Source: Rhizobiales bacterium Ga0077545
GTDB lineage: Bacteria; Pseudomonadota; Alphaproteobacteria; Rhizobiales; Methylopilaceae
Reading direction: 5' to 3'
NCBI GenBank assembly: GCA_001464335.1
Contig: LNEV01000003.1
Location: forward strand, 1 to 64,000
Length of the DNA stretch: 64,000 bases
The notes below the pieces were generated by a model. It worked only from the letters and a program-made list of their open reading frames with translations, was not told the DNA's origin and did no database searches. Positions 9,145 to 35,313 of the stretch are shown in pieces. The stretch's first letter is position 1, and the number at the start of each line of letters is the position of its first letter. The translations under genes and the position numbers were made by a program.

Positions 9145-9221
9145 CGGAGTGTAGCGCAGCCTGGTAGCGCACCTCGTTCGGGACGAGGGGGTCGTAGGTT
9201 CAAATCCTATCACTCCGACCA
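9145..9221 (+). tRNA. tRNA-Pro, anticodon CGG
   Basis: A complete 77-base cloverleaf. The acceptor CGGAGTG (9145-9151) pairs with CACTCCG (9211-9217), followed by discriminator A and an encoded CCA. The D-arm contains GCGC AGCCTGGTA GCGC. The anticodon stem CCTCG/CGAGG encloses TTCGGGA, so the anticodon is CGG, reading CCG proline codons. The T-arm has the canonical GGTTCAAATCC. The flanks 8879-9144 and 9222-9354 hold no gene that I can see. Confidence 0.97.
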
Positions 9222-11800: not shown

Positions 11801-12808
11801 TCAGGAATCCATCTTCATAAGGCGGCGCGCGTTGCCGCCCATGATCTTGTCGAGATCCTCTTTCGGAAGGCCGAGATCCTCGAGCACCTTGATGGTCTCG
11901 CGGATGAACATGTAGCCGCCCTCGGGATCGAAAGGACAGTCGCTGGCGAACACCACCTGGTCGGCGCCGAAGAAGTCGAGGCCGCATTTGGTGCCGGAGA
12001 CCGAGCCGAACAGAGCCGTGTCGGCATAAAACATCTTGAAGTAATCCAGCGGGCGCTTCTTCATGCTCTTGAGAAGGCCCTCGTAATCCTCATCGGCGGT
12101 GCGGGTTCCGAGCTGGTCCCAGCCCGGGCCGACGCGGCCTTCGAAGAACGGGATCATCGCACCCATATGGTGCGTGATGACCTTCATGTTCGGCAGCTTC
12201 TCGAACATTTTCGAGAACACGATGTGGGACATGGCGGCGCTCGTCTCGTAGGGCCAGCCCAAGGTCCACCAGATCTCGTATTTGGACTTCTCTTCATCCT
12301 TGTAATCGGCGAAATCCGCACCGCGCACCGGGTGCAGCCAGAGCGGCAGGTCGTGATGCACCATGCGCTCGAAGATCGGGAAATATTCCGGTCGGTCGAG
12401 CGGCGCTCCCTTCACGTTCGAGAAGATCTGCACGCCACGCGCGCCCAGTTGCGTCACCGCGCGATCGATTTCCTCGACCGCAGCATCCGGATTGTTCATC
12501 GGCAGCGAGGCGATGAAGGTTGGGAAATGATCGGGATATTTCGCGCAGAGCTCGGCAAAACCGTCATTGGCGATCCGCGCCAGTTCCGGCGACACATCCG
12601 GGCCGGCCACCACTTCGAGCGGCGGCATCGAGTTCGACAGGACCTGCTGATAATCGCCGAAACTGTCGATCATGCGAAGGCGCTCCTCGACGTTCCAGAG
12701 CGTCGGGATGTTGAGCCACCTCTTGATCGGGCCCTTGTTCGGGATGAGTTCCTGCATGCGCTCGAAGTAGCGCGGCGGGAACAGATGCGTGAAAGCGTCA
12801 AGACGCAT
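11801..12808 (-). CDS. ACMSD-like amidohydrolase (probable decarboxylase)
   Basis: A 335-residue cytoplasmic protein of the amidohydrolase_2 family, which includes aminocarboxymuconate-semialdehyde decarboxylase (ACMSD) and gamma-resorcylate decarboxylase. The N-terminus reads MRLDAFTHLFP, where ACMSD has an HxH pair, so the first metal His is replaced by Phe. Downstream ligands look intact: LWLHPVRG, VITHHMGAMIPFFEGR, and the Asp in FASDCPFDPEGG. Members remove a carboxyl group from aromatic or muconate-type intermediates, or hydrate them. The ATG at 12808 has GAGG six bases upstream and is preferred over 12820. It follows the monooxygenase gene with a short gap on the same strand, so hydroxylation and decarboxylation may be consecutive. 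Hydratase or hydrolase activity is the alternative. Confidence 0.8.
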   Translation of the reverse strand: MRLDAFTHLFPPRYFERMQELIPNKGPIKRWLNIPTLWNVEERLRMIDSFGDYQQVLSNSMPPLEVVAGPDVSPELARIANDGFAELCAKYPDHFPTFIASLPMNNPDAAVEEIDRAVTQLGARGVQIFSNVKGAPLDRPEYFPIFERMVHHDLPLWLHPVRGADFADYKDEEKSKYEIWWTLGWPYETSAAMSHIVFSKMFEKLPNMKVITHHMGAMIPFFEGRVGPGWDQLGTRTADEDYEGLLKSMKKRPLDYFKMFYADTALFGSVSGTKCGLDFFGADQVVFASDCPFDPEGGYMFIRETIKVLEDLGLPKEDLDKIMGGNARRLMKMDS

Positions 12809-12856
12809 ATTGGACCTCATCTATCGGTAGCTTGCGTTGATCCCCTGGCGTCGCGG

Positions 12857-14089
12857 TCACTCGACCTCGTTCGCCATGCGCAGGCTGTCGAAGAGCGAGC
12901 TTCGATAGATGAACTGCTTGTGGAGATTGATGTCCTCCGACATGCGCCGGAGATTGTCGAGGTTCTTGCGGCGGATCGCCGGATCCTTCTCCTCGAGGCT
13001 CTTCTTGTTCGCGATCGACTGCGCCTGCACGAAATCGATCTGCGCCTTGCGGCGCTGGCGCGAATAGCGGTCGAACACATTGTCGTCCGCACGCTTGAAC
13101 CAAACATCAGCGAGCTTCTCGGCAAGGTTGACGGCATCGTGGATGCCGCCGTTCATGCCCATGCCGCCGATCGGGTTGTTCACATGGGCGCTGTCGCCCG
13201 CGAGAAACACCCGGCCCTTGTTGTATGTCGCGGCGACACGCTGATGGACCTGATAAAGGGCGTGGTAGGCGATGTCGTAATCGCCGCTCTTCGGATAGAG
13301 GTTCTGCAGGCGGCGCTGCACGCCCTCGACGCTCATCGCGCTCTCGTCGGGCTCGTCGGCCGGAACCGGGAAGATGCCGCGCCAGATGCCCTTGCCGCCA
13401 TTTCCCTTCACCTGAAACAGGTTCAGCCACTCGTCGGGATCCGAGAAGTAGTTACGCGTGCAATAGCCGCGATCGGTGTCGAGATAATCGAACGTCGTGC
13501 CGATCTTGATGAAGCGCTCCGGCCATGTGAAGCCTTCGAGCTCGATGTCCGCGAGGCGGCGCACCGAGCTGCGGAAGCCGTCCGTGCCGATGACATAGCG
13601 TCCGCGCAGGATTTCGCTCTCGCCAGCAGCGTTCGTGACCGTCAGTTGGACCTCGTCTTCGGTCTGCTTGAGATCGGTGAGGCGCGTCGAGAAGCGGACC
13701 TCGGCGTTCGGGTCCCCTTCCATCTTCTTCAGGGCCGCCCGGACAAGCTTGTACTGCTCCCACTGAAGCACAAACGGATAGGCGACTTCGCCTTTCAACA
13801 CGTTCACGTCGAAGACAGCGACCAGCTCGTTGTCGATGCGGTTGCGGTAGTGAAAGATCGGGGACTGGAGGCCGCCAGACGGCTCGTCCGAGAACGCCTC
13901 CTCTTCAAGACCGAGCTCGGCCAGCATTTCGACCGTCGGCGGATGCACGGTTGCCGCGCGCTGGTCTTCGATCGGCTCTTTCTCGGACTCGATCAGCGTG
14001 ACTGGTATGTTTCGGCGGCTCAGCGCCAGCGCCATGACGGCTCCGACCGGCCCGGCCCCGACCACGAAAACCCGATCCAAACTGGACAT
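12857..14089 (-). CDS. FAD-dependent aromatic-ring monooxygenase (PHBH fold)
   Basis: A 410-residue class A flavoprotein hydroxylase. It carries the N-terminal FAD-binding VFVVGAGPVGAVMALAL, the DG motif in YVIGTDGFRSSVRR near 160, and the GD motif in VFLAGDSAHVNNPIGGMGMN near 285. It is shorter than MhpA-type enzymes and lacks their thioredoxin-like C-terminal domain. Such enzymes use NAD(P)H and O2 to place a hydroxyl on an activated aromatic or hydroxypyridine ring. The ATG at 14089 is preferred over 14104 because GGGAG lies six bases upstream. It is the first gene of a two-gene operon with the ACMSD-like amidohydrolase. Two copies of the island palindrome lie just upstream, so it is probably repressed without inducer. 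The substrate is not known; a hydroxylated N-heteroaromatic acid is my inference. Confidence 0.88.
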   Translation of the reverse strand: MSSLDRVFVVGAGPVGAVMALALSRRNIPVTLIESEKEPIEDQRAATVHPPTVEMLAELGLEEEAFSDEPSGGLQSPIFHYRNRIDNELVAVFDVNVLKGEVAYPFVLQWEQYKLVRAALKKMEGDPNAEVRFSTRLTDLKQTEDEVQLTVTNAAGESEILRGRYVIGTDGFRSSVRRLADIELEGFTWPERFIKIGTTFDYLDTDRGYCTRNYFSDPDEWLNLFQVKGNGGKGIWRGIFPVPADEPDESAMSVEGVQRRLQNLYPKSGDYDIAYHALYQVHQRVAATYNKGRVFLAGDSAHVNNPIGGMGMNGGIHDAVNLAEKLADVWFKRADDNVFDRYSRQRRKAQIDFVQAQSIANKKSLEEKDPAIRRKNLDNLRRMSEDINLHKQFIYRSSLFDSLRMANEVE

Positions 14090-14115
14090 CCACAACTCCC
14101 GCATAAGGCAATATT

Positions 14116-14347: not shown

Positions 14348-15154
14348 TCAGGCCTTCTGAAAGTAGCGTCCCGGCGTTACGCCAAACCCGGCCTTGAACA
14401 TGGCGATGAAAGTGCTGGGCGCTTCGAAGCCGAGCGCATCGGAAATGTCGTTGATCGACATATCCTGACTGAGCATTTCAAGAGCGCGAAACAATTTCGC
14501 CTGATTTCGGAAGGCGCGCATGGTCATGCCCGTTTCCTTCTTGAAAGAGCGCTCGAGCGTGCGCGTCGAGTACCCCAGACGCCCGGCCCACAGACCGAGC
14601 GACAGATGTGCCGCAGGGTTTCGGAGGATGCCCTCGGCCATATCGCGAAGCGGCCCATGGCCGGGCAGAGGTATATGCAACGGCAATTCATTCGACGCGG
14701 CGATCTGGTCCAGCAGAACGCCCATAAGACGCCCTTCGGCACCCTCCTCGTCATAATCGCGCGGCAACGTCATGCAGGCATCGATCAGACAGCGCAGGAG
14801 ATGGCCGACATGAACGACCCCCGTCCGCGACGGGAGATCGGGCGCCGCGTCCTTGTCTATATAAAGAGTGCGCAGCCGCGTCGCCGCGAGATGCCGCGTT
14901 TCATGCTCCACGCCGGCCGGAATCCAGAGGGCGCGCTCGGGAGGCACGACATAGGTACCCGCCTGCGTCGTGACGGCGATCGAGCCGGCGACCGTCGCCA
15001 GCAATTGCGCCCGCTCGTGGCTGTGCGGCGCAACCCCGCCTCCCCGTGGAAGCTCGGCCGCATAAGCGATGACGCGCCTCGCCGCAGGCACGTCGGGCTG
15101 GTGCAGCACGTCGGGGTGGACGCGGTCCAGGAAAGGTTGTCGCTTCACCGACAT
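14348..15154 (-). CDS. AraC-family transcriptional regulator with N-terminal cupin
   Basis: A 268-residue DNA-binding regulator. Residues ~30-110 form a cupin-like sensor (LPRGGGVAPHSHERAQLL, with VPPERALWIPAGVEHE). The last ~100 residues are the double HTH of AraC proteins, with LGYSTRTLERSFKKETG and the family signature ISDALGFEAPSTFIAMFKAG ending in GVTPGRYF. It is transcribed away from the ring-cleavage operon and shares a ~90-base intergenic region holding a palindrome copy. It may therefore be a second, substrate-responsive regulator of the dioxygenase operon and itself subject to the palindrome-binding repressor. The ATG at 15154 is the only good start. The region 14173-14347 between it and the monooxygenase promoter has no other visible gene. 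Confidence 0.93.
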   Translation of the reverse strand: MSVKRQPFLDRVHPDVLHQPDVPAARRVIAYAAELPRGGGVAPHSHERAQLLATVAGSIAVTTQAGTYVVPPERALWIPAGVEHETRHLAATRLRTLYIDKDAAPDLPSRTGVVHVGHLLRCLIDACMTLPRDYDEEGAEGRLMGVLLDQIAASNELPLHIPLPGHGPLRDMAEGILRNPAAHLSLGLWAGRLGYSTRTLERSFKKETGMTMRAFRNQAKLFRALEMLSQDMSINDISDALGFEAPSTFIAMFKAGFGVTPGRYFQKA

Positions 15155-15246: not shown

Positions 15247-16314
15247 ATGCAATCGACGGTCATCGGCGGAGCCATGCTTCCGCATGCCCCGCAATTCTTC
15301 ACGCTGCCCGACACCGAGGACAAGGACACGGTGATGCGCGTCAAGAAAGCGGCGGCCGATATCGGCGCAAAGCTGAACGCGCTGAACCCCGATCTGTGGA
15401 TCATCTTCTCGAATGACCACGCCGAGCAGTTCTTCCACAATTCAGCGCCGCCCTTCACCATCCATGTCGGTGGCGAGGCCTCCGGCGATTTCGCCGGCCA
15501 CAAATTCCATTGGCAGGTGCCGAGCCAGATCGGTTTCGAGCTTGTCCGCGAAATGTACAAGCAGGGCTTTGACCCCGCCTTCACCTCGACCGCGCACATC
15601 GATTATGCGATCGGCATTCCGCTGACCCATCTCGGCGTGACCGCGCCTGTCCTGCCGATCTACGTCAACGCCTATCTGCCGCCGCAGCCGAGCATGGAAC
15701 GCTGCTATGCGTTCGGCCAGGCGATCGCGCGCGCGGTCACGTCCATGGGTCTGCGCACCGCCGTCATTTCGAGTGGCGGCATGTCCCATTTCCCCGGCAC
15801 CGACCGTTACGGCAATCCGGAACTCAGCTGGGATGAAAAGGCGCTCACAAAGCTTGCCGACGGCAATCTCAAATCCTTGATCGGCTATGACGAGGCCGAA
15901 CTCGACGACACCGGAAACATCGAACTGCGCTGCTGGGCCTGCGGCGCTGGGGCTCTGGGCGAGCGCAAGCCGGATCTCGTGTCGATGGAGCCAAGCTGGC
16001 ATCATAATTACGCATCGCTCGGCTGGTTCGAGCCGAAGAGCGCGGACCGCGAGGCGCATTACCCGAGCATCAAGCCCGAACTTGTCGCACTGACGAGTGC
16101 ACTTCACGCCCTCGCGCACGATGCCGACAAGCGCCAGAGCTATGTCGAGAACCCGGCAGACTATTCATCCAGGCTCGATCTTTCGCCGGAGCACAAGGCG
16201 GCCCTCGTCGCGCTGGACGTTCCCGCGCTCGTCGAGATGGGCGTGCACCCGCTCGTTCCGTTCCTTGCCAATATGCACATACAGCGCATCCGCAAGTCGA
16301 AAGCAACCGCATGA
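15247..16314 (+). CDS. Extradiol ring-cleavage dioxygenase, LigB domain fused to a LigA-like C-terminus
   Basis: A 355-residue class III (LigB-superfamily) extradiol dioxygenase. The likely Fe(II) ligands are H13 (MLPHAPQF), H58 (FSNDHAEQFF) and E226 (GNIELRCW), with H181 (GGMSHFPG) as the catalytic base; all are present. The last ~45 residues (SSRLDLSPEHKAALVALDVP and on to MGVHPLVPFLAN) match the small LigA subunit of LigAB, so both parts sit in one chain, as in gallate dioxygenases. It would open a dihydroxylated aromatic or heteroaromatic ring with O2. It is the first gene of a rightward operon and overlaps the aldehyde dehydrogenase by four bases (ATGA), which implies that the cleavage product is a semialdehyde. 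An island palindrome lies 38 bases upstream. Confidence 0.88.
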   Translation: MQSTVIGGAMLPHAPQFFTLPDTEDKDTVMRVKKAAADIGAKLNALNPDLWIIFSNDHAEQFFHNSAPPFTIHVGGEASGDFAGHKFHWQVPSQIGFELVREMYKQGFDPAFTSTAHIDYAIGIPLTHLGVTAPVLPIYVNAYLPPQPSMERCYAFGQAIARAVTSMGLRTAVISSGGMSHFPGTDRYGNPELSWDEKALTKLADGNLKSLIGYDEAELDDTGNIELRCWACGAGALGERKPDLVSMEPSWHHNYASLGWFEPKSADREAHYPSIKPELVALTSALHALAHDADKRQSYVENPADYSSRLDLSPEHKAALVALDVPALVEMGVHPLVPFLANMHIQRIRKSKATA

Positions 16315-17750
16315 GCGAGGACCGGCTGGAACAGCTTGTGCCTTTCGTCGGTGGAAAGCCCCTTCCCCCCCGGGAAGCGGGTTTTCCGCTCGTCCGCCCG
16401 GAAGACGGCAAAACGACGGCGTTTCTTGTCGAAGCGGGAGCCGAGGGCGTTGCAGCAGCGGTCGAGAGCGCCAAACCGGCCGCCCGCATCGCGCGCAAGG
16501 CGACATTGCATCAGCGGAGCCAATGGCTGACCGCCGCCGCGAACGCGCTGAAAGAGCAAGCGGACGCGATTGCCGAGCTGATCTCGGAGGATGTCGGCAA
16601 GCCGATCCGTGCGGCGCGTTTTGAGACGCGGCGCGGCGTCGAATTCATCGAAGCCTGCGCGGGAGCGGTCCTGCATCTGTCCGGCGGCGAGGTTGTCCCG
16701 GTCGATGCCGCACCGAACGGTGCAGGCCATTTCGGGTTCACCCGGCGTGTTCCCTACGGCGTGGTCGGTGCCATTACGCCCTTCAACGCGCCGATCAATC
16801 TTCTTGTCCAGAAAGTGGCACCGGCGATCGCGGCCGGCAATGCCGTGGTCGTCAAGCCCGCGCCGGCCGGCACGCGCGCCGCGCTTGCGTTGGCGCAGCT
16901 TTGCCTTGAGGCCGGCTGGCCGGAAGGCCTGTTCAATGTGGTAACAGGCGACCGCGAGACGGCGCTCGCTCTCGCCTCTCATCCGGACGTCGCGCTTGTG
17001 ACGTTCACCGGAGGCACGACGGCGGGCGAGGCACTCGTGCGTGCGGCAGGCGTCAAGAAATTCGTCTCCGAGCTCGGGTCCAACGCGGCCAATATCGTGT
17101 TCAAGGATGCCGACATCGAAGACGCCGCGAAGAAGATCGCGGCGGCGGCCTTCGAGGCAAGCGGGCAGCAATGCATTTCCGCCCAGCGTGTCCTCGTCGA
17201 AAAAGACGTGCTCGATGCCTTCCTCGCCGCCTTCAAGACCGCCGCATCGGCGCTGAAGGTCGGTGCGGCCGGAGATCCGTCCACCGATGTCGGCCCGATG
17301 GTCCATCGGGCATCCGCAGACCGCGTCATGGCGATGAGCAAGGATGCCATCGACCACGGTGCGCGTTACGTGCTCGAACCGGTACAGAATGCGTGCGTGC
17401 TTTCCCCGGCGATCCTGACGGATGTCCCCAAAGAGGCGCGGCTGTGGACCGAGGAAGTGTTCGGCCCCGTTGCCATCGTCGTGCCGTTCGAGGGCATCGA
17501 AGAGGCCCTCGCGCTTGCCAATGACAGCCCGTTCGGGCTTCAGGGCGCCGTCTTTACAACCTCGCTTTCGGCCGCGATGCGCTGTTCGGAAGACTTCGAT
17601 GTCGGCGCGCTCTGGGTCAACGAAGCAAGCCGTTTCCGGCTCGATATGTATCCGTTTGGCGGCATGAAGCTGAGCGGAACGGGCCGCGAGGGCGTGCGCT
17701 ACGCCATCGAGGAAATGGGACAGATAAAGTTCACCGGCCTGAAGGTCTGA
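16311..17750 (+). CDS. NAD(P)-dependent aldehyde dehydrogenase
   Basis: A cytoplasmic ALDH-superfamily enzyme of 479 residues with all catalytic residues visible: N159 (ITPFNAPINLL), the cofactor Lys in VVKPAPAG (K182), the general base E254 (FVSELGSNAANIV) and the nucleophile C288 (ASGQQCISAQRV). The DNA overlaps the dioxygenase gene, so the natural substrate is most likely the muconate-type semialdehyde formed by ring cleavage, oxidised to the dicarboxylate. This would be analogous to 2-aminomuconate or 2-hydroxymuconate semialdehyde dehydrogenases. Sequence reading alone does not separate NAD from NADP preference. It is the second gene of the operon, four bases before the Ntn-hydrolase gene. 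Confidence 0.9.
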   Translation: MSEDRLEQLVPFVGGKPLPPREAGFPLVRPEDGKTTAFLVEAGAEGVAAAVESAKPAARIARKATLHQRSQWLTAAANALKEQADAIAELISEDVGKPIRAARFETRRGVEFIEACAGAVLHLSGGEVVPVDAAPNGAGHFGFTRRVPYGVVGAITPFNAPINLLVQKVAPAIAAGNAVVVKPAPAGTRAALALAQLCLEAGWPEGLFNVVTGDRETALALASHPDVALVTFTGGTTAGEALVRAAGVKKFVSELGSNAANIVFKDADIEDAAKKIAAAAFEASGQQCISAQRVLVEKDVLDAFLAAFKTAASALKVGAAGDPSTDVGPMVHRASADRVMAMSKDAIDHGARYVLEPVQNACVLSPAILTDVPKEARLWTEEVFGPVAIVVPFEGIEEALALANDSPFGLQGAVFTTSLSAAMRCSEDFDVGALWVNEASRFRLDMYPFGGMKLSGTGREGVRYAIEEMGQIKFTGLKV

Positions 17751-17754: not shown

Positions 17755-19155
17755 ATGTCGGCTTTTGACAGATTAAAGGAGAATGCCGTTGCCGTCGGGC
17801 CGAAGGTCATCTCGGCGGGGCACGCTGCCGCAGCATCGGCGGGCGCAACGGCCTATGCGAAAGGCGGCAATGCCTTCGACGCGGCGCTTGCCGCCTGCTT
17901 CATGGAGCACATCGTGCTGCCGATGAAGTGCGGGCTTGCCGGCGATCTCGTCGCGCTGTTCCGCACCAATGGCGGTGAATTCCAGTCTCTCGTCAGCATC
18001 GGCGCCGGAGCGCGGGGGCTCGCGAAAGGTGCAAGCATCGAGCGCACGGGCCCGAATTCGGTCGGCGTTCCCGGCGCGCCGCACGGTTACGCCATTCTTC
18101 AGGCCTACGGGCGGCTGGCGCTCGGAGACCTCGCGCGGCCCGCGATACGTGCGGCGTCCGAAGGGGTGCCGTGGACGCGCGTTGCCCGTTCCTATGTTGT
18201 CGAAGGCGCGGCGCTTCTCGCGCGCCACAGCCCCTACAATCCTTACGCGCCCGGCGGCCGGATTCCGGAGATCGGTGAAGTCCGTCGTCTGCCGGGGCTT
18301 GGCAGCCTTCTCGAAGCATTTATCGACATGCGCGAGGCCGTTCTCGAAAGCGAGATCGGGGATCGCATCGCCGCACGCGTGCAGGAGCTCGGCGGCTTTC
18401 TCACGCGGGAGGATTTCGCCCAGCGTCCGGGCCGGATCGCCGAAGCCGTGAGCGGAAGCATCGCTGCGGGCCTGACCCTGCGCGTTCCCTCTGCCCCGAC
18501 CCATGGCCCCCAGCTGATCGACATCGCGCGCCGCTTCCTTGCGCGCGAGGCGGATCTTCCGTCCATCGTCCGCGCGGCGCGGGTGGACGCCAAGGCGCGC
18601 GGACGCGAGACCGCCGATGGTGGCACATCCGTGGTGACGGCGGCCGACGACGAGGGCAATGCGGTCGTGATCCTGCATTCGAATTCGTTCCCGCAATTTG
18701 CCTCGGGCGTCGTGCTCGACGACGGCCTTATTCTCAACAACCGCCCCGGCCGCGGTTTCGATCTGCAAGCCCCGCCCGATGCCGCCAATGCGCCGGGCGC
18801 CGGCAAAGTGCCGTGGACGACGCTTCATGCATGGTCGCTGGCTTATGAAAGCGGGGAAACGCTCCTCGGCGCGACGCCGGGCGGCGTCAATCAATTGCCC
18901 TGGAACGCGCAGACCGTCACGGAACTCGCGCGCGGCCCGGACATCGCCGCTGCGATGACCAATCCGCGGTGGTCGCTTGATGCTGAAAACATGTTGTCCG
19001 CCGAGGACGGCGTCGACCCCGCAATTGTTGCGGACAAGCGTATCGAGGCCCTCAGCCTGCGGTCGGCGCAGCAGGTGATCCATCTGGCGAAGAACGGTCC
19101 GCACCGGATCGCGGCCGATCCGCGAACCGGCGCCACCGCAATTTCGGTGTACTGA
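17755..19155 (+). CDS. Gamma-glutamyltransferase-like Ntn hydrolase, cytoplasmic
   Basis: A 466-residue protein of the gamma-glutamyltranspeptidase family. The large-subunit part begins ISAGHAAAASAGATAYAKGG and contains GNAFDAALAACF. The presumed autocleavage nucleophile is in DGGTSVVTAADDEGNAVV near residue 290, where classical enzymes have a TTHF-type motif. GVVLDDGLILNN and the glycine-rich LLGATPGGVNQLPWNAQT follow. It is shorter than typical GGT (about 580) and has no signal peptide, so it should work in the cytoplasm rather than on periplasmic glutathione. Its place between the aldehyde dehydrogenase and the aspartate-dehydrogenase-like gene suggests hydrolysis of an amide or lactam in the pathway. 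A glutathione-related role or an unprocessed paralogue is possible. Confidence 0.8.
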   Translation: MSAFDRLKENAVAVGPKVISAGHAAAASAGATAYAKGGNAFDAALAACFMEHIVLPMKCGLAGDLVALFRTNGGEFQSLVSIGAGARGLAKGASIERTGPNSVGVPGAPHGYAILQAYGRLALGDLARPAIRAASEGVPWTRVARSYVVEGAALLARHSPYNPYAPGGRIPEIGEVRRLPGLGSLLEAFIDMREAVLESEIGDRIAARVQELGGFLTREDFAQRPGRIAEAVSGSIAAGLTLRVPSAPTHGPQLIDIARRFLAREADLPSIVRAARVDAKARGRETADGGTSVVTAADDEGNAVVILHSNSFPQFASGVVLDDGLILNNRPGRGFDLQAPPDAANAPGAGKVPWTTLHAWSLAYESGETLLGATPGGVNQLPWNAQTVTELARGPDIAAAMTNPRWSLDAENMLSAEDGVDPAIVADKRIEALSLRSAQQVIHLAKNGPHRIAADPRTGATAISVY

Positions 19156-19156: not shown

Positions 19157-19963
19157 ATGAGCATTCTGAAAGTCGGCATCATAGGCTATGGCGCCATTGG
19201 GCCGACACTCCACACGCTTCTGAAAAAGCATGCGCGGAATGTGCAGGTCGTCGCCATCCTCGATCGCGAGGCGTCGGTCGAAGCGGCCCGTGCGCGCGCG
19301 GGCGAAACACCCGTCACCCATCAGCTCGCCGACTTCCTCGCCTTCGAACCTGATATTGTTGTTGAATGCGCGGGCCACGCCGCCCTCCGCGCCCACGGCA
19401 TCGCCGTCCTCGATGGCGGGTGCGACCTGATCGTATCTTCCGTCGGCGCGCTCGCCGACACTGAGATCGAAGCCGCACTGCGCAGCGCCGCCCAGCGCAC
19501 ACGCAACCGGCTTGTGATCCCTTCAGGAGCCGTCGGTGGCCTCGACGCTCTTGCGGCGGCCCGCCCATCCGGCATCGACGAAGTATCGTACACGTCGCGC
19601 AAGAAGCCGATTGCCTGGACCGGTACGCCTGCCGAGAAGATGATCGATCTCTCCGCGATAGCCGAACCGACGCCTTTCTTTTCCGGCAACGCCCGGGAGG
19701 CGTGCCTCACCTTCCCGCAGAACGCAAACGTCGTTGCCGCCATTGCCATTGCCGGCATCGGTTTCGAGAAAACGCGCGTTACCCTGATGGCCGATCCTGA
19801 CACGCCTGGAAATCGCCACGACATTGTCGCTCATGGCACTTTCGGGACCATTTCGAGCTCAGTGGTGACGCGCACTTTGCCTGAAAACCCCAAAACCTCC
19901 ATGCTCGCTCCCTACAGCGTGATGCGGTCCATCCTGAACATGGCCGGACCGGTCATCATCTAA
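19157..19963 (+). CDS. Aspartate dehydrogenase-like oxidoreductase
   Basis: A 268-residue NAD(P)-binding protein of the aspartate dehydrogenase family (NadX/DUF108). The N-terminal Rossmann domain begins VGIIGYGAIGPTLHTLL. The C-terminal domain contains IPSGAVGGLDALAAAR and FPQNANVVAAIAIAGIGF, and ends with the ENPKTSMLAPYSV segment typical of the family. Known members interconvert aspartate and oxaloacetate/iminoaspartate. Here it starts one base after the Ntn-hydrolase gene, inside a ring-cleavage operon, so it probably handles an amino or imino dicarboxylate released from the pathway, perhaps as an imine reductase or deaminating dehydrogenase. A relative is encoded at 47217-48023 in the other catabolic locus. 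The physiological substrate is not established. Confidence 0.83.
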   Translation: MSILKVGIIGYGAIGPTLHTLLKKHARNVQVVAILDREASVEAARARAGETPVTHQLADFLAFEPDIVVECAGHAALRAHGIAVLDGGCDLIVSSVGALADTEIEAALRSAAQRTRNRLVIPSGAVGGLDALAAARPSGIDEVSYTSRKKPIAWTGTPAEKMIDLSAIAEPTPFFSGNAREACLTFPQNANVVAAIAIAGIGFEKTRVTLMADPDTPGNRHDIVAHGTFGTISSSVVTRTLPENPKTSMLAPYSVMRSILNMAGPVII

Positions 19964-19981: not shown

Positions 19982-21061
19982 GTGAAACCGGCCGATCTCG
20001 ATCTCTCCGTGAACCACCCTGCCCTCGATCAGGCGCGCGGCGACTGGCCAGGTTTCGGTCTGAGCGACGACATCCGGCCGGCCCTCGCTGCCGCTCGCGA
20101 CGCGGGCGAAACCTGTGCGCTGGCGACACTCTTCGATGCGCGTGGCGGCACGCCACGCGGCGTTGGCGCGCAGATGCTGGTGCGGCGCGCCTGCGTCTCA
20201 GGTTTTCTGTCCGGTGGATGCATCGAAGCCGACGTTACCCTCAACGCCCTCGCCGTTCTCGATGGTGGACAAGCCCGCCGTCTCGTCTATGGCGAAGGTG
20301 GACCCATCGACATCCGGCTGCCGTGCGGCGGTTGCGTCAACATACTCGTCGAGAGGATACTGCCGGACGATCCGGCCGTGGGCGAGTTGCTGAAGGCATG
20401 GCATGAACGCCGGCCTGCAATCTGGCTGAGCGATGGCGATGCCCGATCCTGCCAAGACGGCACATCGTCAAACCCCGCGTTTCCGGAAATGGCCGGCATG
20501 TCTGCTGCCGATCCACAAATGACGATCTATCGTCGGTACTTCCCTCAGCCACGGCTGATCGTGTTCGGTTCCGATCCGATGGTTCTCGCCCTGTCCAGCA
20601 TGGCCGCGCAGAGCGGTATCGACACCGCGATCGCGCGCCCGAAAGGCCCACTCGCCGCCCCGCCTGTGGCCGGTATCCGTTATCTTCGCGGCATGCCTGC
20701 CGACAATCTGACGAAGATCGGCGTCGACCGATGGACCGGTATTGTGGTCGCGGCCCACGACGATATCGACGATCGGGACGCGTTGTTCGCGGCCCTGCAG
20801 TCGGACGCGGGCTATGTCGGCCTTCTTGGGGCAAAACGGCATCTGCAGCGCAAGCTTGAGCATCTTCGCCTCAAAGGTGTCGACGACGCTTTTCTTGCGC
20901 GGCTCAGGGCACCTGTCGGACTTCCTGGAGGCGGGCGCTCACCTTGGCAGATTGCCATTTCCATTCTCGCCGAATTCGCACAGTGGTCGAATGCCGAACA
21001 GAATAGTTACGTCGGTGTAGCGCCGCACCTGCCTGATTCAGCTTCCCGCACCGCCAGCTAA
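19982..21061 (+). CDS. XdhC/CoxI-family molybdenum-cofactor maturation protein
   Basis: A 359-residue protein. An N-terminal XdhC_CoxI domain at about 40-110 includes ATLFDARGGTPRGVGAQMLV and FLSGGCIEADVTLNAL. A C-terminal Rossmann-like XdhC_C domain begins near 190 (PRLIVFGSDPMVLALSSMAA) and ends LRAPVGLPGGGRSPWQIAIS. Such proteins bind molybdenum cofactor and insert or sulphurate it in xanthine-dehydrogenase-type hydroxylases; the two hydroxylases nearby are the obvious clients. The start is a GTG at 19982, because no ATG fits the conserved N-terminus. It closes the dioxygenase operon, so enzyme maturation is co-expressed with ring cleavage. Confidence 0.88.
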   Translation: MKPADLDLSVNHPALDQARGDWPGFGLSDDIRPALAAARDAGETCALATLFDARGGTPRGVGAQMLVRRACVSGFLSGGCIEADVTLNALAVLDGGQARRLVYGEGGPIDIRLPCGGCVNILVERILPDDPAVGELLKAWHERRPAIWLSDGDARSCQDGTSSNPAFPEMAGMSAADPQMTIYRRYFPQPRLIVFGSDPMVLALSSMAAQSGIDTAIARPKGPLAAPPVAGIRYLRGMPADNLTKIGVDRWTGIVVAAHDDIDDRDALFAALQSDAGYVGLLGAKRHLQRKLEHLRLKGVDDAFLARLRAPVGLPGGGRSPWQIAISILAEFAQWSNAEQNSYVGVAPHLPDSASRTAS

Positions 21062-21120
21062 CTCCTCGGCTTAAAAACATGCCGCCAAGCGCCGATACAA
21101 TGACCAGCCCTCAAATTTAT

Positions 21121-21134
21121 GTTAGTATACTTAC
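21121..21134. promoter_or_regulatory. Island operator, copy 5 (ridA-like gene)
   Basis: GTTAGTATACTTAC, 13 of 14 matches to the shared palindrome, 20 bases upstream of the RidA-family start codon and overlapping a TATACT that could serve as -10. Confidence 0.75.
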
Positions 21135-21154
21135 ATTATTCAGGAGGTGGCATC

Positions 21155-21619
21155 ATGGTCAGTGTCGAAGACAAACTCGCCGCAATGGGTCTGAAACTGC
21201 CGACGGAAATTCCTCCCGCCGGTAATTACCTGCGTTATTATCAGGCGGGCAATCTGCTGTTCCTGTCCGGCCATTTGCCCGATTCCGATGGCACGCCGCG
21301 CTATATGGGGCGGCTTGGCGAGAACCTCACGACCGAGCAGGGTTACGAGGCGGCGCGGGCGGCAACGCTGAACGCGCTCGGCTCGGTCCGCAACGCAATC
21401 GGCGATTTCGGGCGGGTACGCCATTTCGTGAAGCTGCTCGGCATGGTCAACAGCACGCCGGACTTCATCGAACAGCCGCGCGTCATGAATGGCGCGTCGG
21501 ATCTTCTGGCTGAACTCTTTGGCCCCAAAATCGCGCCGCATGCGCGCTCAGCTGTCGGCATGGCGGTTCTGCCTCGCGGGAACTCGGTCGAGATCGAAAT
21601 GATCCTCGACATCGCCTGA
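21155..21619 (+). CDS. RidA/YjgF-family protein (possible aminomuconate-type deaminase)
   Basis: A 154-residue protein of the RidA superfamily, in the slightly longer branch with an N-terminal helix (SVEDKLAAMGLKLP). The core shows LLFLSGHLPDSDG, and HARSAVGMAVLPRGNSVEIEMIL near the end, with the conserved Arg that contacts imine substrates. RidA proteins hydrolyse enamines/imines to ketones and ammonia; 2-aminomuconate deaminases belong to the same superfamily. The ATG at 21155 has a strong AGGAGG eight bases upstream, and the conserved sequence starts here. It has its own promoter with a palindrome copy, so it is a separate unit of the island regulon. A perfect terminator palindrome follows. 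Assignment as a pathway deaminase is inference from context. Confidence 0.88.
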   Translation: MVSVEDKLAAMGLKLPTEIPPAGNYLRYYQAGNLLFLSGHLPDSDGTPRYMGRLGENLTTEQGYEAARAATLNALGSVRNAIGDFGRVRHFVKLLGMVNSTPDFIEQPRVMNGASDLLAELFGPKIAPHARSAVGMAVLPRGNSVEIEMILDIA

Positions 21620-21663: not shown

Positions 21664-22650
21664 TCAGGTGCGGAACACGCCGCGCTTGCGGCCCTGTGAC
21701 GTGCTCATGAACAACTCTTCGAGCGGAATCTTCCGGCTGATAAGCCCCTGCTCGTGGGAATATCCGACCAGCGTCTCGAAATTGTGCCGGTTACGCTCTC
21801 CAAGTCCGTACTCCCACGGATCCTCGCCGAGAATCTGCTCCTGCTCTTCCCACGCCTCCTGATACCAGGCGAGCGGGACGAGACGCGGATTGCGCATGCG
21901 CTTCATCGCAATCGTCTTCGACCGCTGAAACGCATCGTAGAGGTTCGGCACAATCCAGGGATGTTCCTCGACCAGTTCCTGCTTGAAACCGAGCACGTGC
22001 ATGATCGGGAAGATGCCGGTCTTGGCGTAGTATTTCTCTTCCTCTTCCTTGTAGTTCGGAAACAGGCGCCCGACGCGCGGATCTTTGTTCAAGAAAGGTT
22101 CGATGATGTCGGGATGCAGAAGAGCGTCGATCTCACCCTCGGCCAGCATGGTCTCGATCGATTTGTCCTGCGCAATCTTGGTCAGCTTCAGGCCTTCCGG
22201 AGGCGTGAACTCGATGTCCTCGTCAAGCTCCGCAAACCATTCGATGGATTTGTGCGGCACGCCATAATCGTGTTCGAGAATGCCACGCAGCCACAGGACG
22301 GCGGTCACCTGATAGGATTTCACACCGATCTTCTTTCCGATGAGATCGGTTGGTTTCGAAATACCTTTTGTCGTGTTCGTAAAGATAAAGCCGTGGCGGA
22401 AGCGTCGGTGCAGGAAGACCGGCAGCGCACGGAACGGAAGGTCGCGGTCGCGCGCGACGATGTATGACGAGCCGGAGCATTCCGCGACGTCGTATTCGCG
22501 TCCGCGCAAGAAGCGCCAATGGCGCGTTGCCGAATCCGCCCCCGTCAGAATGTTCAGATCGATACCGTCCGGCTTGACGATGCCTTCCTTAAGCGGGCGT
22601 ATGATTTCGTAATCACCGCAGGCAAGCGTCAGATGCAGTTTCTTGGTCAT
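21664..22650 (-). CDS. Pht5-like decarboxylase / NMT1-type protein, cytoplasmic
   Basis: A 328-residue protein with the periplasmic-binding-protein type II fold of the 4,5-dihydroxyphthalate decarboxylase (Pht5) family. The opening LHLTLACGDYEIIRPLKEGI is followed by VKPDGIDLNIL and EYDVAECSGSSYIVARDRD, typical of that group. There is no signal peptide, which argues for a cytoplasmic enzyme rather than a transport protein. The ATG overlaps the molybdenum-hydroxylase stop (ATGA), so it is translationally coupled and ends a long leftward operon with the TTT transporter. A natural role is to remove a carboxylate from the hydroxylated ring made by the neighbouring enzyme. A binding protein that is not exported remains the alternative. 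Confidence 0.8.
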   Translation of the reverse strand: MTKKLHLTLACGDYEIIRPLKEGIVKPDGIDLNILTGADSATRHWRFLRGREYDVAECSGSSYIVARDRDLPFRALPVFLHRRFRHGFIFTNTTKGISKPTDLIGKKIGVKSYQVTAVLWLRGILEHDYGVPHKSIEWFAELDEDIEFTPPEGLKLTKIAQDKSIETMLAEGEIDALLHPDIIEPFLNKDPRVGRLFPNYKEEEEKYYAKTGIFPIMHVLGFKQELVEEHPWIVPNLYDAFQRSKTIAMKRMRNPRLVPLAWYQEAWEEQEQILGEDPWEYGLGERNRHNFETLVGYSHEQGLISRKIPLEELFMSTSQGRKRGVFRT

Positions 22651-25004
22651 GAGATGGCTTCCCCCCGGGCCGCCATTTCCGCGCGGCCTTTCTGAATGAG
22701 ATTGAACAGAGTTTCCGGAACGATCGGTGTCTGCGAAATGCGTACAGCGAACGGCTTCAGCGCGTCCTCCACCGCTGAGATGATCGCAGCGGCGGCGGGA
22801 ATCGTGCCCGCTTCGCCGACGCCCTTGGCGCCGAGCGGGTTCATCGGAGACGGCGTTTCAAGATAGATGGTTTCGAATCGAGGCAGCTCCGTCGCCGTGA
22901 CAAGGAGGTATTCGGCAAAGGTTGTGGTCAGCGGCTGTCCGGATTCGTCGTATCCCATGACTTCGAACAGCGCATTGCCGATGCCGTGAGCGATGCCGCC
23001 ATGGATCTGCCCGTCGACAATCATCGGATTGATCAGCTTCCCGGAATCGTGCAGCGCGACATAGCGATTGATGGTCACATGTCCGACTTCGACATCCACC
23101 TCGACTTCGACGACATGGCATGCATTCGCGTAGGCGAGCGCATCCGTCTTCCACTGGATGCTGGATTCGAGACCGGGATCCACGTCCGCCGGAAACGCAT
23201 AGCCGGGTGCGCCGCGCAGCCGCGTCGCGACCTCGGCGAGGCTCATACCTCTGTTCGAGTTGCCTTTGACGCGGACGTGACCGCCCGAGAGCTCAAGCTC
23301 CTCTTCCGGAACGTCGAGCATATGGCTCGCCGCCTTGATCGCCTTGGCCGCCACCGCTTTCGAGGCGATATGCACAGACGAGCCTGCCGTCACGAGCTGG
23401 CGGCTCGCAAATCCACCAAGACCAAGCGGCGAGAAAGCCGTGTCTCCCGCGATCACCGTCACCTGCTCGGCTTCGATGCCGAGTTCCTCGGCACAGATCT
23501 GTGCCAGCGCGGTCGCAAGGCCCTGCCCCATCGCGGTCGCGCCCGTAAATACGCTGACACGGCCGGATGGCGCAATACGAACGGTGCCGCTCTCGAACGG
23601 CCCACGCCCGGTTCCCTTGACCGCGTTTGCCATGCCGATACCGATATGGCGGCCTTCGGCCAGTGCCGCAGCCTGCCGCTGCGGAAAGTCAGTCCAGCCC
23701 GCAGCGGCCAGCGCTTCCGCCTGCGAGGCGGGATAGTCGCCGGAATCGTAGACCATAGCAGCGCCCGAACGCGCCTTGAGCGGCTTTGTGTAGGGCATTT
23801 TCGACGGCGGAATGAGATTGCGGGCGCGAACCTCCGCGCGGTCGATGCCAAGCTCTGTCGCAATAAGGTCCATCATGCGCTCCATCGCGAAAGCGGCCTG
23901 AGGATAACCCGCACCTCGCACCGAGGAGACCGGAACCTTGTTGGTGTGCACGATCGAAACATCGACCGAATAGGCCGGAACGATATAGGGACCCGTCGCG
24001 GCCGTCGCCGAATTATAGGGCAGGTTCACGGGCTTCGGGGCGTAGGCTCCCTGATCGTGGATCAGGCTCCCTTTCATCCCGAGCACGCGGCCGTCTGCAT
24101 CCGTGGCGACATCGAGCGACCAGTACTGGTCGCGCTCCTGGATGGCCGCAAGGAAGTTTTCGCGGCGGTCCTCGATCCATTTGAGATTGCGCCCCAGGAT
24201 CGTCGCTGCGGCAGGCAGCGCGAACTCCTCGGGATAGAGACAATATTTTGGGCCGAACCCGCCGCCGACGTCGGGTGTAATAACACGAAGCCGGTTCTCG
24301 TCGAGATCGAGCATCGCAGACAACGCATGAAAGAGATCGTGCGGCATCTGTGTCGAAGACCAGACGCAAAGCGAATTCCCACCGGGCCGAACTTCGACGA
24401 GAACTCCGCGTCCTTCCATCGGATGCCCGCAGCCGCGGTGCTGCAGAAGATCGTCGTGGAAGACATGAGCCGCATCGGAAAAGGCGGCTTCGATATCGCC
24501 GAATTCGACCTTGAGCTTGTTGAGGACATTGGAAGCAAGTTCCGTACGGACGACTGGCGCTCCCACCACCGCTCCCACGCGTGCGTCGGTGACCACCGGT
24601 AGCGTATCGTAATCCACGATCACCGCAGCCACGGCGTCCTCTGCTTCATAACGCGAGTGTGCTACGACCATGGCGATGGGTTCGCCGACATAGGCCACTT
24701 CCTTGTCGGAAAGAACAAAGGGTGTGCTCGAATTCTGCGCCGAGCTCGGGCTCGCCCCCAGCGGCATTCGCAACGACATCAACGCAGGCTTGAGATCTTT
24801 TGCCTGCATCACCGCGTGGACGCCGGGCATGTCTTTGGCGATTTCAACGTCGACACCGATTATACGCGCATGCGCGACGGTGCTTCGCACGAACGCGACG
24901 TGCAGGAGATCCGGCAAAGCGATGTCATCGACAAAACGTCCATTACCCCTCAGCAGCGCCGGATCTTCAATGCGGTGTTTCGGGTGCCCGACAACTCGGC
25001 TCAT
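22647..25004 (-). CDS. Molybdenum hydroxylase large (molybdopterin) subunit, system 1
   Basis: A 785-residue xanthine-dehydrogenase-family catalytic subunit. The N-terminal hammerhead domain (HPKHRIEDPALLRGNGRFVDD) precedes the cofactor-binding part with GGGFGPKYCLYPEE, SSVRGAGYPQAAFAMER, TGATAMGQGLATALAQICAE and GGFASRQLVTAGS. The catalytic Glu is in GVGEAGTIPAAAAI near residue 745. Such enzymes add an oxygen from water next to a ring nitrogen or oxidise aldehydes. It lacks the AYRCSFR loop of true CO dehydrogenase, so hydroxylation of an N-heterocycle is more likely than CO oxidation. The gene order is FAD subunit, 2Fe-2S subunit, then this subunit, all overlapping by one to four bases, with the Pht5-like gene after it. 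Confidence 0.92.
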   Translation of the reverse strand: MSRVVGHPKHRIEDPALLRGNGRFVDDIALPDLLHVAFVRSTVAHARIIGVDVEIAKDMPGVHAVMQAKDLKPALMSLRMPLGASPSSAQNSSTPFVLSDKEVAYVGEPIAMVVAHSRYEAEDAVAAVIVDYDTLPVVTDARVGAVVGAPVVRTELASNVLNKLKVEFGDIEAAFSDAAHVFHDDLLQHRGCGHPMEGRGVLVEVRPGGNSLCVWSSTQMPHDLFHALSAMLDLDENRLRVITPDVGGGFGPKYCLYPEEFALPAAATILGRNLKWIEDRRENFLAAIQERDQYWSLDVATDADGRVLGMKGSLIHDQGAYAPKPVNLPYNSATAATGPYIVPAYSVDVSIVHTNKVPVSSVRGAGYPQAAFAMERMMDLIATELGIDRAEVRARNLIPPSKMPYTKPLKARSGAAMVYDSGDYPASQAEALAAAGWTDFPQRQAAALAEGRHIGIGMANAVKGTGRGPFESGTVRIAPSGRVSVFTGATAMGQGLATALAQICAEELGIEAEQVTVIAGDTAFSPLGLGGFASRQLVTAGSSVHIASKAVAAKAIKAASHMLDVPEEELELSGGHVRVKGNSNRGMSLAEVATRLRGAPGYAFPADVDPGLESSIQWKTDALAYANACHVVEVEVDVEVGHVTINRYVALHDSGKLINPMIVDGQIHGGIAHGIGNALFEVMGYDESGQPLTTTFAEYLLVTATELPRFETIYLETPSPMNPLGAKGVGEAGTIPAAAAIISAVEDALKPFAVRISQTPIVPETLFNLIQKGRAEMAARGEAIS

Positions 25005-25489
25005 GCGCGGCGTCCCTTGCGCAGCTCTGCCGCTGCCTGCATCGCCGCGGCGACGATGCTCTGATAGCCGGTACAGCGGCAGATGTTGCCCGAAATCGCG
25101 TCGCGCACATCCGCTTCTGTTGGGTCGGGTTGCTCATCGAGCAGCTCCATCAACGTCATCAGAATTCCGGGCGTGCAGAAGCCGCACTGAAGGCCGTGAT
25201 TGTCTCGGAACGCCGTCTGAAGCGGGTGCAAATCTCCGTTCGGTTCCGCCAATCCCTCGATCGTGCGGACATCCGATCCTTCGGCCTGCACCGCGAGCAT
25301 GAGGCAACTGCGCGCGCTTACCCCATCGACAAGGATCGTGCAGGCACCACAAACGCCGTGCTCACAGCCCAGATGCGTGCCGGTCAATCCGAGACCATGG
25401 CGCAGAAAGTCTGCCAATGTGGTGCGCACGTCTGCCGTGCCGCTGTAGCTACGGCCATTGACAGTGAGTTCGATGCTGCGCTCCGACAT
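25001..25489 (-). CDS. Molybdenum hydroxylase 2Fe-2S subunit, system 1
   Basis: A small electron-transfer subunit of 162 residues. The plant-type ferredoxin cluster is in LGCEHGVCGACTILVDG, with the fourth Cys in SARSCLMLAV. The second, helical cluster has LQCGFCTPGI and ICRCTGYQSIV. All eight cluster cysteines can be counted. It passes electrons from the molybdenum centre to the FAD subunit. The start codon overlaps the FAD subunit stop by one base (TGATG), and its stop overlaps the large-subunit start by four (ATGA), so the three are made together in a fixed ratio. Confidence 0.96.
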   Translation of the reverse strand: MSERSIELTVNGRSYSGTADVRTTLADFLRHGLGLTGTHLGCEHGVCGACTILVDGVSARSCLMLAVQAEGSDVRTIEGLAEPNGDLHPLQTAFRDNHGLQCGFCTPGILMTLMELLDEQPDPTEADVRDAISGNICRCTGYQSIVAAAMQAAAELRKGRRA

Positions 25490-26370
25490 CAGTTGAGCCC
25501 TCCTAGGCGGTCTCTGGCTCGAGAGATCGCGGTCTTCAACGTCTTGCGGAGCACCGAACGCGCGACATGCTTGCGGTAATCGGCGCTCCCGTGGAAATCG
25601 CCGAGCACATCCAAACCGTCGCAGAATGAGAGCGCTGCCTCGACGGTTGCATCGTCGCCAGACGTGCCGGAGAGGACCTCTTCGGCCTCGACGCCGCGCA
25701 GCGGAACCGTGCTGACGCCGCCAACAGCTATCGCGATCTTATCGATTGTCCCCGACGCGTCGCAGGTCACCAGGCAGCCAGCAGATGCAACGGCAAAATC
25801 GCCATGACGGCGAGTGAATTCGTGGAAGCAATAGCCGTGGCCGTCCTGCCAGAGCGGGATTTCCACCGCGACGACAACCTCATTCGGTTCGATGCCCGGC
25901 GTCATGTAATCGACGATAAAATCGGCGATCGGCAGAGTTCGCCGTCCGCCCTCTTTGGCAATCTCGATTTCGGCATCGTGCAGCAACGCGATGGTCGGAA
26001 GCTCGGCTGCCGGATCGAGATGGCAAAGGCTACCGCCGATCGTGCCACGATTGCGAGTCTGCCGGTGGCCGACGAGATGCAGCGCCTCCGCAACGATGGG
26101 AGCGCGCTCGTTGACGAGCGGATCCAGTTCGATCTTACGCTGCCGGGTCATCGCCCCAATCCTGAGCCGGTCACGCTTGATTTCGATACCTGCAAGGCCG
26201 GGCACGCGGTTGATGTCGATCAGCACATCCGGGAAGACATAACGCAAATTGAGCATCGCCATCAAAGACTGGCCGCCCGCGAGAATCTTGGCATTTTCCG
26301 TTCCCGCCAGCATGACACACAGCTCGTCGAGGCTTTCGGGACGCAGATACTCAAACGGTGGCGGCTTCAT
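25489..26370 (-). CDS. Molybdenum hydroxylase FAD-binding subunit, system 1
   Basis: A 293-residue CoxM-type FAD subunit. The PCMH-type FAD site is seen as AKILAGGQSLMAMLNLRY near 35 and RNRGTIGGSLCHLDPAAELP near 105-125, followed by the CO_deh_flav_C domain (residues ~175-280) ending DYRKHVARSVLRKTL. It hands electrons to the final acceptor. It is the first of three overlapping subunit genes and lies 112 bases downstream of the TctB gene on the same strand, without a palindrome copy of its own. I infer that it is transcribed from the operator-controlled TTT promoter at about 30.9 kb. Confidence 0.94.
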   Translation of the reverse strand: MKPPPFEYLRPESLDELCVMLAGTENAKILAGGQSLMAMLNLRYVFPDVLIDINRVPGLAGIEIKRDRLRIGAMTRQRKIELDPLVNERAPIVAEALHLVGHRQTRNRGTIGGSLCHLDPAAELPTIALLHDAEIEIAKEGGRRTLPIADFIVDYMTPGIEPNEVVVAVEIPLWQDGHGYCFHEFTRRHGDFAVASAGCLVTCDASGTIDKIAIAVGGVSTVPLRGVEAEEVLSGTSGDDATVEAALSFCDGLDVLGDFHGSADYRKHVARSVLRKTLKTAISRARDRLGGLN

Positions 26371-28554: not shown

Positions 28555-28577
28555 TGGGCACTATCCTATCGCGTTTA

Positions 28578-28609
28578 CCACCAGCTCGGCCAAAGAACGC
28601 GGCTGGTGG
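28578..28609 (-). promoter_or_regulatory. Intercistronic hairpin between binding-protein and TctA genes
   Basis: CCACCAGC (28578-28585) pairs with GCTGGTGG (28602-28609) across a 16-base loop in the 74-base gap. It lacks a U-run, so a role in mRNA stability or processing, keeping binding-protein mRNA more abundant, is the likeliest reading. Confidence 0.4.
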
Positions 28610-28628
28610 GGTGCTTTTCGTTTCCAGT

Positions 28629-29654: not shown

Positions 29655-29737
29655 CTTTAATCATCCCGCATTCGAAAGGGGCTGACCGCAACAAGAGTTA
29701 CCGCCAGCCCGGACAATGACGGCCCGAAAATATCCCG

Positions 29738-33320: not shown

Positions 33321-33321
33321 C

Positions 33322-34143: not shown

Positions 34144-34158
34144 CCCAATCTCCGGCGC

Positions 34159-34187: not shown

Positions 34188-34195
34188 CCAGGCAT

Positions 34196-35251: not shown

Positions 35252-35313
35252 CTTACGCCTCCTGGGGCCGGATCCGACCATCCACTCGCTGCATTATTGG
35301 CAGAAAATTTTCC

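Follow-up and report, generated by a model that had tools for sequence, protein, structure and literature searches.

A tyrosine-variant LigB-LigA dioxygenase clade of Proteobacteria and its candidate role in opening a pyridine carboxylate ring

The first 64,000 nucleotides of contig LNEV01000003.1 of Rhizobiales bacterium Ga0077545 (hereafter the window) encode a single-chain dioxygenase, LigBA, followed by a compact series of nitrogen-handling genes, and the question raised by this locus is which ring such an enzyme opens. Pyridine ring-cleaving enzymes are much less understood than aromatic ones (PMC7910607). An initial annotation, made from the sequence alone, had proposed a dihydroxypyridine- or aminophenol-type substrate.

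A single-chain dioxygenase in a clade of its own

15247–16314, plus strand: LigBA, single-chain LigB+LigA class III extradiol dioxygenase, predicted ring-cleavage enzyme (Pfam, DesB-like fold, own clade)

The open reading frame encodes 355 amino acid residues, with an AGGAGG ribosome-binding site directly 5' of its ATG. The LigB domain (PF02900) was detected at 111.4 bits (cut-off 26.3), and the LigA-like C-terminal domain of LigBA itself at 21.9 bits, slightly below the Pfam cut-off of 25.3. When all 81 family members were scanned with Pfam, LigB was matched in each of them and LigA in 64 (E ≤ 1e-3; best 1.1e-8). Foldseek comparison of an AlphaFold2 model built from these 81 sequences (mean pLDDT 90.8) gave the single-chain gallate dioxygenase DesB as the top PDB match, aligned over the full length, followed by LigB, MhpB and 2-aminophenol dioxygenases. 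The LigA-like domain claimed by the initial annotation was thus recovered, and the model indicates that LigBA is a single-chain LigB-LigA protein of DesB-like architecture. By sequence, the nearest solved relative is MhpB (E = 3.8e-22), the two-chain enzyme AmnAB giving a weaker match.

When LigBA was aligned to MhpB, PmdB, annotated gallate dioxygenases and further LigB proteins, the iron ligands fell at H13, H58 and E226 and the catalytic histidine at H181. The LigB domain and this 2-His-1-carboxylate site characterize LigBA as a member of the class III extradiol dioxygenases (LigB superfamily). All LigB active-site residues had been credited to the protein; these four are indeed present, but only one histidine of the conserved active-site pair (LigB H127/H195 type) is kept, as H181, while the other, at the position of DesB H124 and MhpB H115, is replaced by Tyr120, a tyrosine in 81 of 81 family members. 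Residues R228 and W251-H252-H253 are likewise invariant in the 81 members. We treat the iron site and the fold, not both histidines, as the defining features, so that Tyr120 marks a variant within class III; the substitution is a signature of the family and possibly a sign of a different ring. The authors of the NicX study proposed that the pyridine N-H could stand in for the histidine N-H during O-O cleavage (PMC7910607), an idea whose extension to LigBA would be speculative.

A single scan of GTDB contigs yielded 293 confirmed relatives. The top 80 are 57–84% identical to LigBA over nearly the full length and belong to Alpha-, Beta- and Gammaproteobacteria. The gene is rare among close kin, being matched in two of 61 related genomes at E ≤ 1e-20 and, at class level, in eight of 385 genomes at 1e-50, the own genome included in both counts; in the plasmid collection no close LigBA was found, every match being below 60% identity. 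The maximum likelihood tree recovered the family as a single clade (support 98/95), separate from the gallate/PmdB (100/100) and MhpB (100/100) clades, with long branches that give no firm order of the groups and with PydA outside the sampling. Scores against the curated models also fell short of their cut-offs for gallate dioxygenase (NF009904, 57.4 against 412 bits), protocatechuate 4,5-dioxygenase (NF009912, 50 against 837 bits) and MhpB, 3-carboxyethylcatechol 2,3-dioxygenase (NF009910, 100.6 against 291 bits). Identity as a gallate or protocatechuate dioxygenase is ruled out by these scores and the tree; placement inside those enzymes, named by the initial annotation as contrary to its proposal, was not found.

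These results bear on a reading in which LigBA is an ordinary 4,5-type dioxygenase of a benzenoid pathway (substituted protocatechuate, gallate or dihydroxyphthalate) and its nitrogen-related neighbours are coincidental. The closeness of its fold to that of DesB is in line with such a role, but the position outside the gallate/PmdB clade, the failure of all curated models and the exchange of a conserved active-site histidine for tyrosine in every member argue against it.

Two observations concern more distant homologs. Genomes of genus g227 (L015, L020 (G269) and relatives) carry two LigBA paralogs 47–55% identical to the query; in L020 one of them lies near gyrA, and in L015 one is accompanied by a Rieske oxygenase. 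In L019 (9902–14139) a 36% identical homolog is followed downstream by a full-length gene of the GGT family, so that LigB and GGT are paired independently there.

Gene content of the catabolic region and its conservation

The following genes lie downstream of LigBA:

16311–17750, plus strand: ALDH, aldehyde dehydrogenase (Aldedh, 469 bits)
17755–19155, plus strand: GGT-like Ntn hydrolase, predicted N-oxalyl amide hydrolase, nucleophile Thr291 (Pfam, 155 bits)
19157–19963, plus strand: AspDH, aspartate dehydrogenase, NadX-type (NCBIfam equivalog NF009827)
19982–21061, plus strand: XdhC/CoxI-type molybdenum hydroxylase maturation factor (Pfam XdhC_C 88.5 bits, XdhC_CoxI 64.8 bits)
21119–21619, plus strand: Rid/YjgF-family protein, possible imine/enamine hydrolase (PF14588, 84.9 bits)

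The six genes are co-directional, with gaps of -4, 4, 1, 18 and 57 bp, the ALDH reading frame overlapping LigBA by 4 bp. The ALDH, Ntn hydrolase, AspDH-like and XdhC neighbours reported by the initial annotation are therefore all present and tightly packed (gaps of -4 to 18 bp). No Rid-family gene was seen in the LigBA clusters of relatives.

In the GGT-like protein the nucleophile Thr291 is invariant (11 of 11 aligned sequences). The catalytic half finds HpxW (5hft) as its top PDB match (E = 1.4e-6), at a low identity of 23–24%, and full-length fold matches rank 2i3o, canonical GGTs and 2nlz above HpxW. Asp433 of E. coli GGT holds the alpha-amino group of glutamate; where that enzyme carries NNQMDDFS with Asp433, both the GGT-like protein and HpxW have an NR-type sequence. 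HpxW converts oxamate to oxalate and ammonium (PMC5270733).

AspDH passes the aspartate dehydrogenase cut-off (NF009827, 244.6 against 226 bits), and in an alignment made to 2dc1 its conserved His221 is found in 12 of 12 sequences. A second aspartate dehydrogenase gene (47217–48023, minus strand) stands beside an asparaginase-family protein (48204–49196, minus strand), near an ABC transporter (41324–45192); these two are the only AspDH genes found in this genome.

The remaining catabolic genes of the window are listed below; the two molybdenum hydroxylases, the flavin monooxygenase, the two putative decarboxylases and the Rid-family protein were absent from the initial annotation.

14348–15154, minus strand: AraC-family regulator, divergent from LigBA across a 92-bp gap (HTH_18, AraC_binding)
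12857–14104, minus strand: FMO, flavin monooxygenase, HspB/PnpA-like, predicted ring hydroxylase (FAD_binding_3, 193.8 bits)
11801–12820, minus strand: AH2, Amidohydrolase_2 protein of ACMSD/PicC type, predicted decarboxylase (PF04909, 124.9 bits)
35688–38066, plus strand: CoxL2, molybdenum-binding hydroxylase subunit, ortholog of the CoxL beside LigBA in relatives
38063–38896, plus strand: CoxM2, FAD subunit of the CoxL2 hydroxylase (FAD_binding_5, 145.9 bits; start chosen from the 4-bp overlap with CoxL2)
38893–39360, plus strand: CoxS2, [2Fe-2S] subunit of the CoxL2 hydroxylase (49% to L062 CoxS; start chosen from the 4-bp overlap with the preceding gene)
22647–26370, minus strand: second molybdenum hydroxylase, CoxL1/CoxS1/CoxM1 (Pfam)
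21664–22650, minus strand: 4,5-dihydroxyphthalate decarboxylase homolog, solute-binding-protein fold, possible accessory decarboxylase (PDB 9jp7, E = 3e-56)
26483–30820 (boundaries approximate), minus strand: TctB, TctA and two TctC-type solute-binding proteins, likely carboxylate uptake (Pfam)

The PDB relatives of FMO are PnpA (6ain) and HspB (7da9), the latter from the pyridine pathway of nicotine degradation, and FMO copies 67–73% identical occur at eight LigBA loci. The relative of AH2 among solved structures is ACMSD, a kind of enzyme that, like PicC, removes carboxylates from hydroxy-picolinates, and copies 70–76% identical are found in L026 and L028; in AH2, its orthologs and the L103 copy, Phe replaces the first His of the ACMSD-type HxH metal motif (DAFTH). 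The AraC-family regulator is kept at six LigBA loci (L023, L024, L025, L026, L028 and L035).

The CoxL2M2S2 set stands 20 kb from LigBA. CoxL2 is 68–71% identical to its counterparts in L023, L026, L027 and L028 and 50–55% to those of L062-type loci, and keeps the catalytic Glu in KGMGEGG; the CSFR motif of CO dehydrogenase is absent from its sequence, by which a CO dehydrogenase reading is ruled out. The only near ortholog of CoxL1 is in L087 (59%), the CoxL proteins of LigBA loci being only 35–38% identical to it. The set at 22.6–26.4 kb was thus displaced as pathway hydroxylase, the ortholog comparison favouring that at 35.7–39.4 kb, and participation of CoxL1/CoxS1/CoxM1 in the LigBA pathway is uncertain. 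An NMT1/SsuA-type ABC transporter (32529–35281, minus strand; permease, ATPase and binding protein), divergent from CoxL2M2S2, may import the substrate of this hydroxylase.

The gene at 21664–22650 overlaps CoxL1 by 4 bp, and paralogs of its product (35–40%) adjoin LigBA in many loci; the solute-binding protein reading suggested by Pfam was set aside, as the solved relative is 4,5-dihydroxyphthalate decarboxylase. On the Sinorhizobium terangae megaplasmid (L103, 12001–14825) a 70% identical copy has as neighbours a class II aldolase and an AH2 of 56% identity, in a stretch with no LigBA; symbionts of mimosoid legumes thus carry a decarboxylase module of its own kind. A tRNA-Pro (cgg) gene (9145–9221, plus strand) borders the catabolic region on the left; elsewhere in the window, no stretch of 12 or more of its bases recurs exactly, as would be expected of the repeats that mark an island.

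In relatives, the gene that follows LigBA encodes ALDH in 22 loci, and a GGT-like gene follows in 12. Five loci (L062, L033, L013, L075 and L084) share the arrangement CoxL-CoxM-CoxS-LigBA-ALDH-GGT-CoxG with AspDH and a branched-chain-amino-acid-type ABC transporter. L026 carries FMO-CoxL-CoxM-CoxS-AH2 as a single block beside AraC and LigBA-ALDH-GGT, and the majority of these block genes are present in L023 and L028. A molybdenum hydroxylase operon with LigBA occurs in Alpha-, Beta- and Gammaproteobacteria (e.g., L062, L084 and L054). AspDH was found near LigBA in 13 of the 39 loci having at least 4 kb before and at least 6 kb after LigBA, and is kept with it over distant branches, L095–L102 included. 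The 61 related genomes (about 4 Mb each) gave about 21 AspDH matches, 44 of the genomes having none; at this density of about 0.09 AspDH genes per Mb, about 0.002 would be expected by chance per 21-kb stretch, a rough estimate since the hosts differ.

The ALDH-GGT-AspDH set is missing from the majority of LigBA loci inside their contigs, which are often short, and G120 has a 70% identical LigBA yet no close GGT ortholog. Other loci combine LigBA with a flavin monooxygenase and a dihydroxyphthalate-decarboxylase-like gene, or with a Rieske oxygenase, UbiD or class II aldolase gene; given these varied partners, the family probably spans more than one substrate and several rings, benzenoid ones possibly included. 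The same genes lend some support to a benzenoid pathway for LigBA itself, but the nitrogen genes recur beside LigBA in more than one class, several in all, and we consider this reading improbable. The clade is real and widespread, with no characterised member found in this analysis, and sits in a conserved nitrogen-handling pathway. Its members number in the hundreds, come from Proteobacteria of soil, freshwater and the sea, and share a substitution at a conserved active-site position.

The similarity of AH2 to ACMSD and of ALDH to 2-aminomuconate semialdehyde dehydrogenase (4u3w) recalls the known aminophenol-type route of dioxygenase, 2-aminomuconate semialdehyde dehydrogenase and deaminase (PMC6742747). 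In an aminophenol or 3-hydroxyanthranilate pathway of this kind, LigBA would open the aminophenol, with AH2 acting as ACMSD and the Rid protein as 2-aminomuconate deaminase. The molybdenum hydroxylase, the GGT-like protein and AspDH would be left with no job, AmnAB is a two-chain enzyme of weaker sequence match, and in the whole genome the best scores for the lower-pathway genes amnD/amnG, 4-oxalocrotonate decarboxylase (102 against 350.6 bits) and 4-hydroxy-2-oxovalerate aldolase (69.5 against 286 bits), miss the curated cut-offs. With two lower-pathway enzymes missing them genome-wide, the aminophenol pathway is disfavoured and regarded as very unlikely. Of the two ring types first suggested, the aminophenol is accordingly the weaker, whereas the dihydroxypyridine is favoured by the position outside the gallate, PmdB and MhpB clades, the molybdenum hydroxylase operon and the fit of the products.

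A candidate route from pyridine carboxylates to oxalate and aspartate

The dihydroxypyridine reading is drawn from the presence of a molybdenum hydroxylase in the LigBA operon of relatives and from the fit of the Ntn hydrolase and AspDH to the expected products. We infer, at a probability of roughly 0.5, that LigBA opens the ring in the breakdown of a pyridine carboxylate, and that this pathway most likely runs via 5,6-dihydroxypicolinate (2,3-dihydroxypyridine-6-carboxylate). Gene families, active-site residues, phylogeny, conserved neighbourhoods and the presence of frc are computed from sequence, whereas every substrate and product is predicted. The more specific proposal, that ring opening of a 2,3-dihydroxypyridine carboxylate falls to the Tyr-variant LigB-LigA enzyme and that the ring nitrogen leaves by way of an N-oxalyl amide, split by an HpxW-like Ntn hydrolase, to yield oxalate and aspartate in a widespread, undescribed route, is put forward tentatively, at a little under even odds.

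In the lower pathway, LigBA with Fe(II) and O2 would cut the C4-C5 bond beside the diol, giving OHC-CH=C(COOH)-NH-CO-COOH. This product is both an aldehyde and an N-oxalyl amide, and ALDH would oxidise its aldehyde group to give N-oxalyl-aminofumarate. The GGT-like Ntn hydrolase would then cut the oxalyl amide, as HpxW does with oxamate, to oxalate and aminofumarate/iminosuccinate. AspDH would convert iminosuccinate to L-aspartate; alternatively, hydrolysis, perhaps helped by Rid, would give oxaloacetate and ammonia. In the carbon balance of 5,6-dihydroxypicolinate, oxalate would correspond to C5 and C6, and the C4 amino acid to C2, C3, C4 and the carboxylate. Oxalate would enter the Frc/Oxc route: frc (formyl-CoA transferase) passes its cut-off on contig C6 of genome G000 (258018–259477, L138), and the C-terminal 27 residues of oxc (oxalyl-CoA decarboxylase) adjoin it, the gene being cut by the contig end.

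The carboxylate on ring carbon C6 is proposed because of AspDH, its sole ground: the piece remaining after oxalate release would be aminofumarate, a tautomer of the AspDH substrate iminosuccinate. A 2,3-dihydroxypyridine with no substituent, or with the carboxylate elsewhere, would undergo the same oxalyl-amide chemistry and give 3-aminoacrylate or aminomethylenemalonate, to be deaminated by Rid, with AspDH serving elsewhere. Such a substrate would suit LigBA, ALDH, the HpxW-like hydrolase and the molybdenum hydroxylase just as well, and a Rid-family gene is present in the operon, but that gene was not seen in the clusters of relatives, and the retention of AspDH with LigBA over distant branches is left without explanation; we regard a differently substituted ring as unlikely.

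For the 5,6-dihydroxypicolinate route, CoxL2M2S2 (matured with XdhC), FMO and AH2 would account for ring hydroxylation and removal of a surplus carboxylate, in an order that is not fixed. Xanthine oxidase-family molybdenum hydroxylases typically hydroxylate the carbon adjoining the ring nitrogen, and enzymes resembling FMO hydroxylate para to an existing OH. One possible sequence would lead from dipicolinate through 3-hydroxydipicolinate and 5-hydroxypicolinate to 5,6-dihydroxypicolinate; another from quinolinate to 6-hydroxyquinolinate, which would then be hydroxylated and decarboxylated. An enzyme that decarboxylates 6-hydroxyquinolinate has been described (PMC6644310). As 5,6-dihydroxyquinolinate is an aza-analogue of 4,5-dihydroxyphthalate, the dihydroxyphthalate-decarboxylase-like proteins would readily find a function in this scheme. 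L062-like loci, with a molybdenum hydroxylase and no FMO or decarboxylase nearby, would suit direct entry at 5-hydroxypicolinate. The chemistry of FMO fits poorly and counts against the scheme, since one sequence would require hydroxylation at the ortho position, while in the other an unactivated ring would have to be attacked; these upstream steps are less certain than the lower pathway. The low identity of the HpxW link, the 20-kb distance of CoxL2M2S2 and the absence of the ALDH-GGT-AspDH set from most loci also weigh against the pathway as a whole.

No published account of the LigBA cluster was found in a search for quinolinate, dipicolinate and dihydroxypicolinate dioxygenases, which reached few pyridine-catabolism journals, so that a prior description is possible. 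If correct, the pathway would explain genes otherwise labelled generic dioxygenase, gamma-glutamyltransferase and aspartate dehydrogenase, and would name an environmental fate for quinolinate- or dipicolinate-like compounds; it makes an assayable prediction, namely that four consecutive enzymes convert dihydroxypicolinate to oxalate and aspartate.

Comparison with characterized systems

Like DesB/GalA gallate dioxygenase, LigBA combines LigB and LigA-like domains in a single chain, with the same whole-chain fold, Fe ligands and catalytic histidine. It is 20–22% identical to these enzymes, approximately 60–80 residues shorter than those compared, and forms a separate clade, with Tyr120 in place of His124 and its own conserved R228 and W251-H252-H253 near the C-terminal side of the LigB domain. 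MhpB, a 2,3-dihydroxyphenylpropionate 1,2-dioxygenase, differs in having no LigA domain and in keeping His at the Tyr120 position. HpxW oxamate amidohydrolase of purine degradation shares with the GGT-like protein the GGT-like Ntn hydrolase family, the Thr nucleophile and the lack of the GGT Asp433 region, whereas the latter, at 23–24% identity, is encoded in a ring-degradation operon rather than a purine operon.

Among pyridine pathways, that of picolinate (picABCD...) shares with the proposed LigBA pathway the pyridine carboxylate substrate class. PicA is a molybdenum hydroxylase and PicC an amidohydrolase-2 protein. In Alcaligenes/Bordetella, hydroxylation by PicA and PicB is followed by the decarboxylase PicC (PMC10142695). 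Ring opening differs: PicD converts 2,5-dihydroxypyridine to N-formylmaleamate, whereas the proposed LigBA pathway would proceed through a LigB-type enzyme, then ALDH, an HpxW-like hydrolase and AspDH. Finally, in the 4-hydroxypyridine pathway of Arthrobacter IN13 (KpiABC), a flavin hydroxylase yields a vicinal dihydroxypyridine that undergoes extradiol cleavage (PMC7356986), but KpiC belongs to the amidohydrolase family, not to LigB, and the Kpi product is an N-formyl amide, whereas that predicted for LigBA is an N-oxalyl amide.
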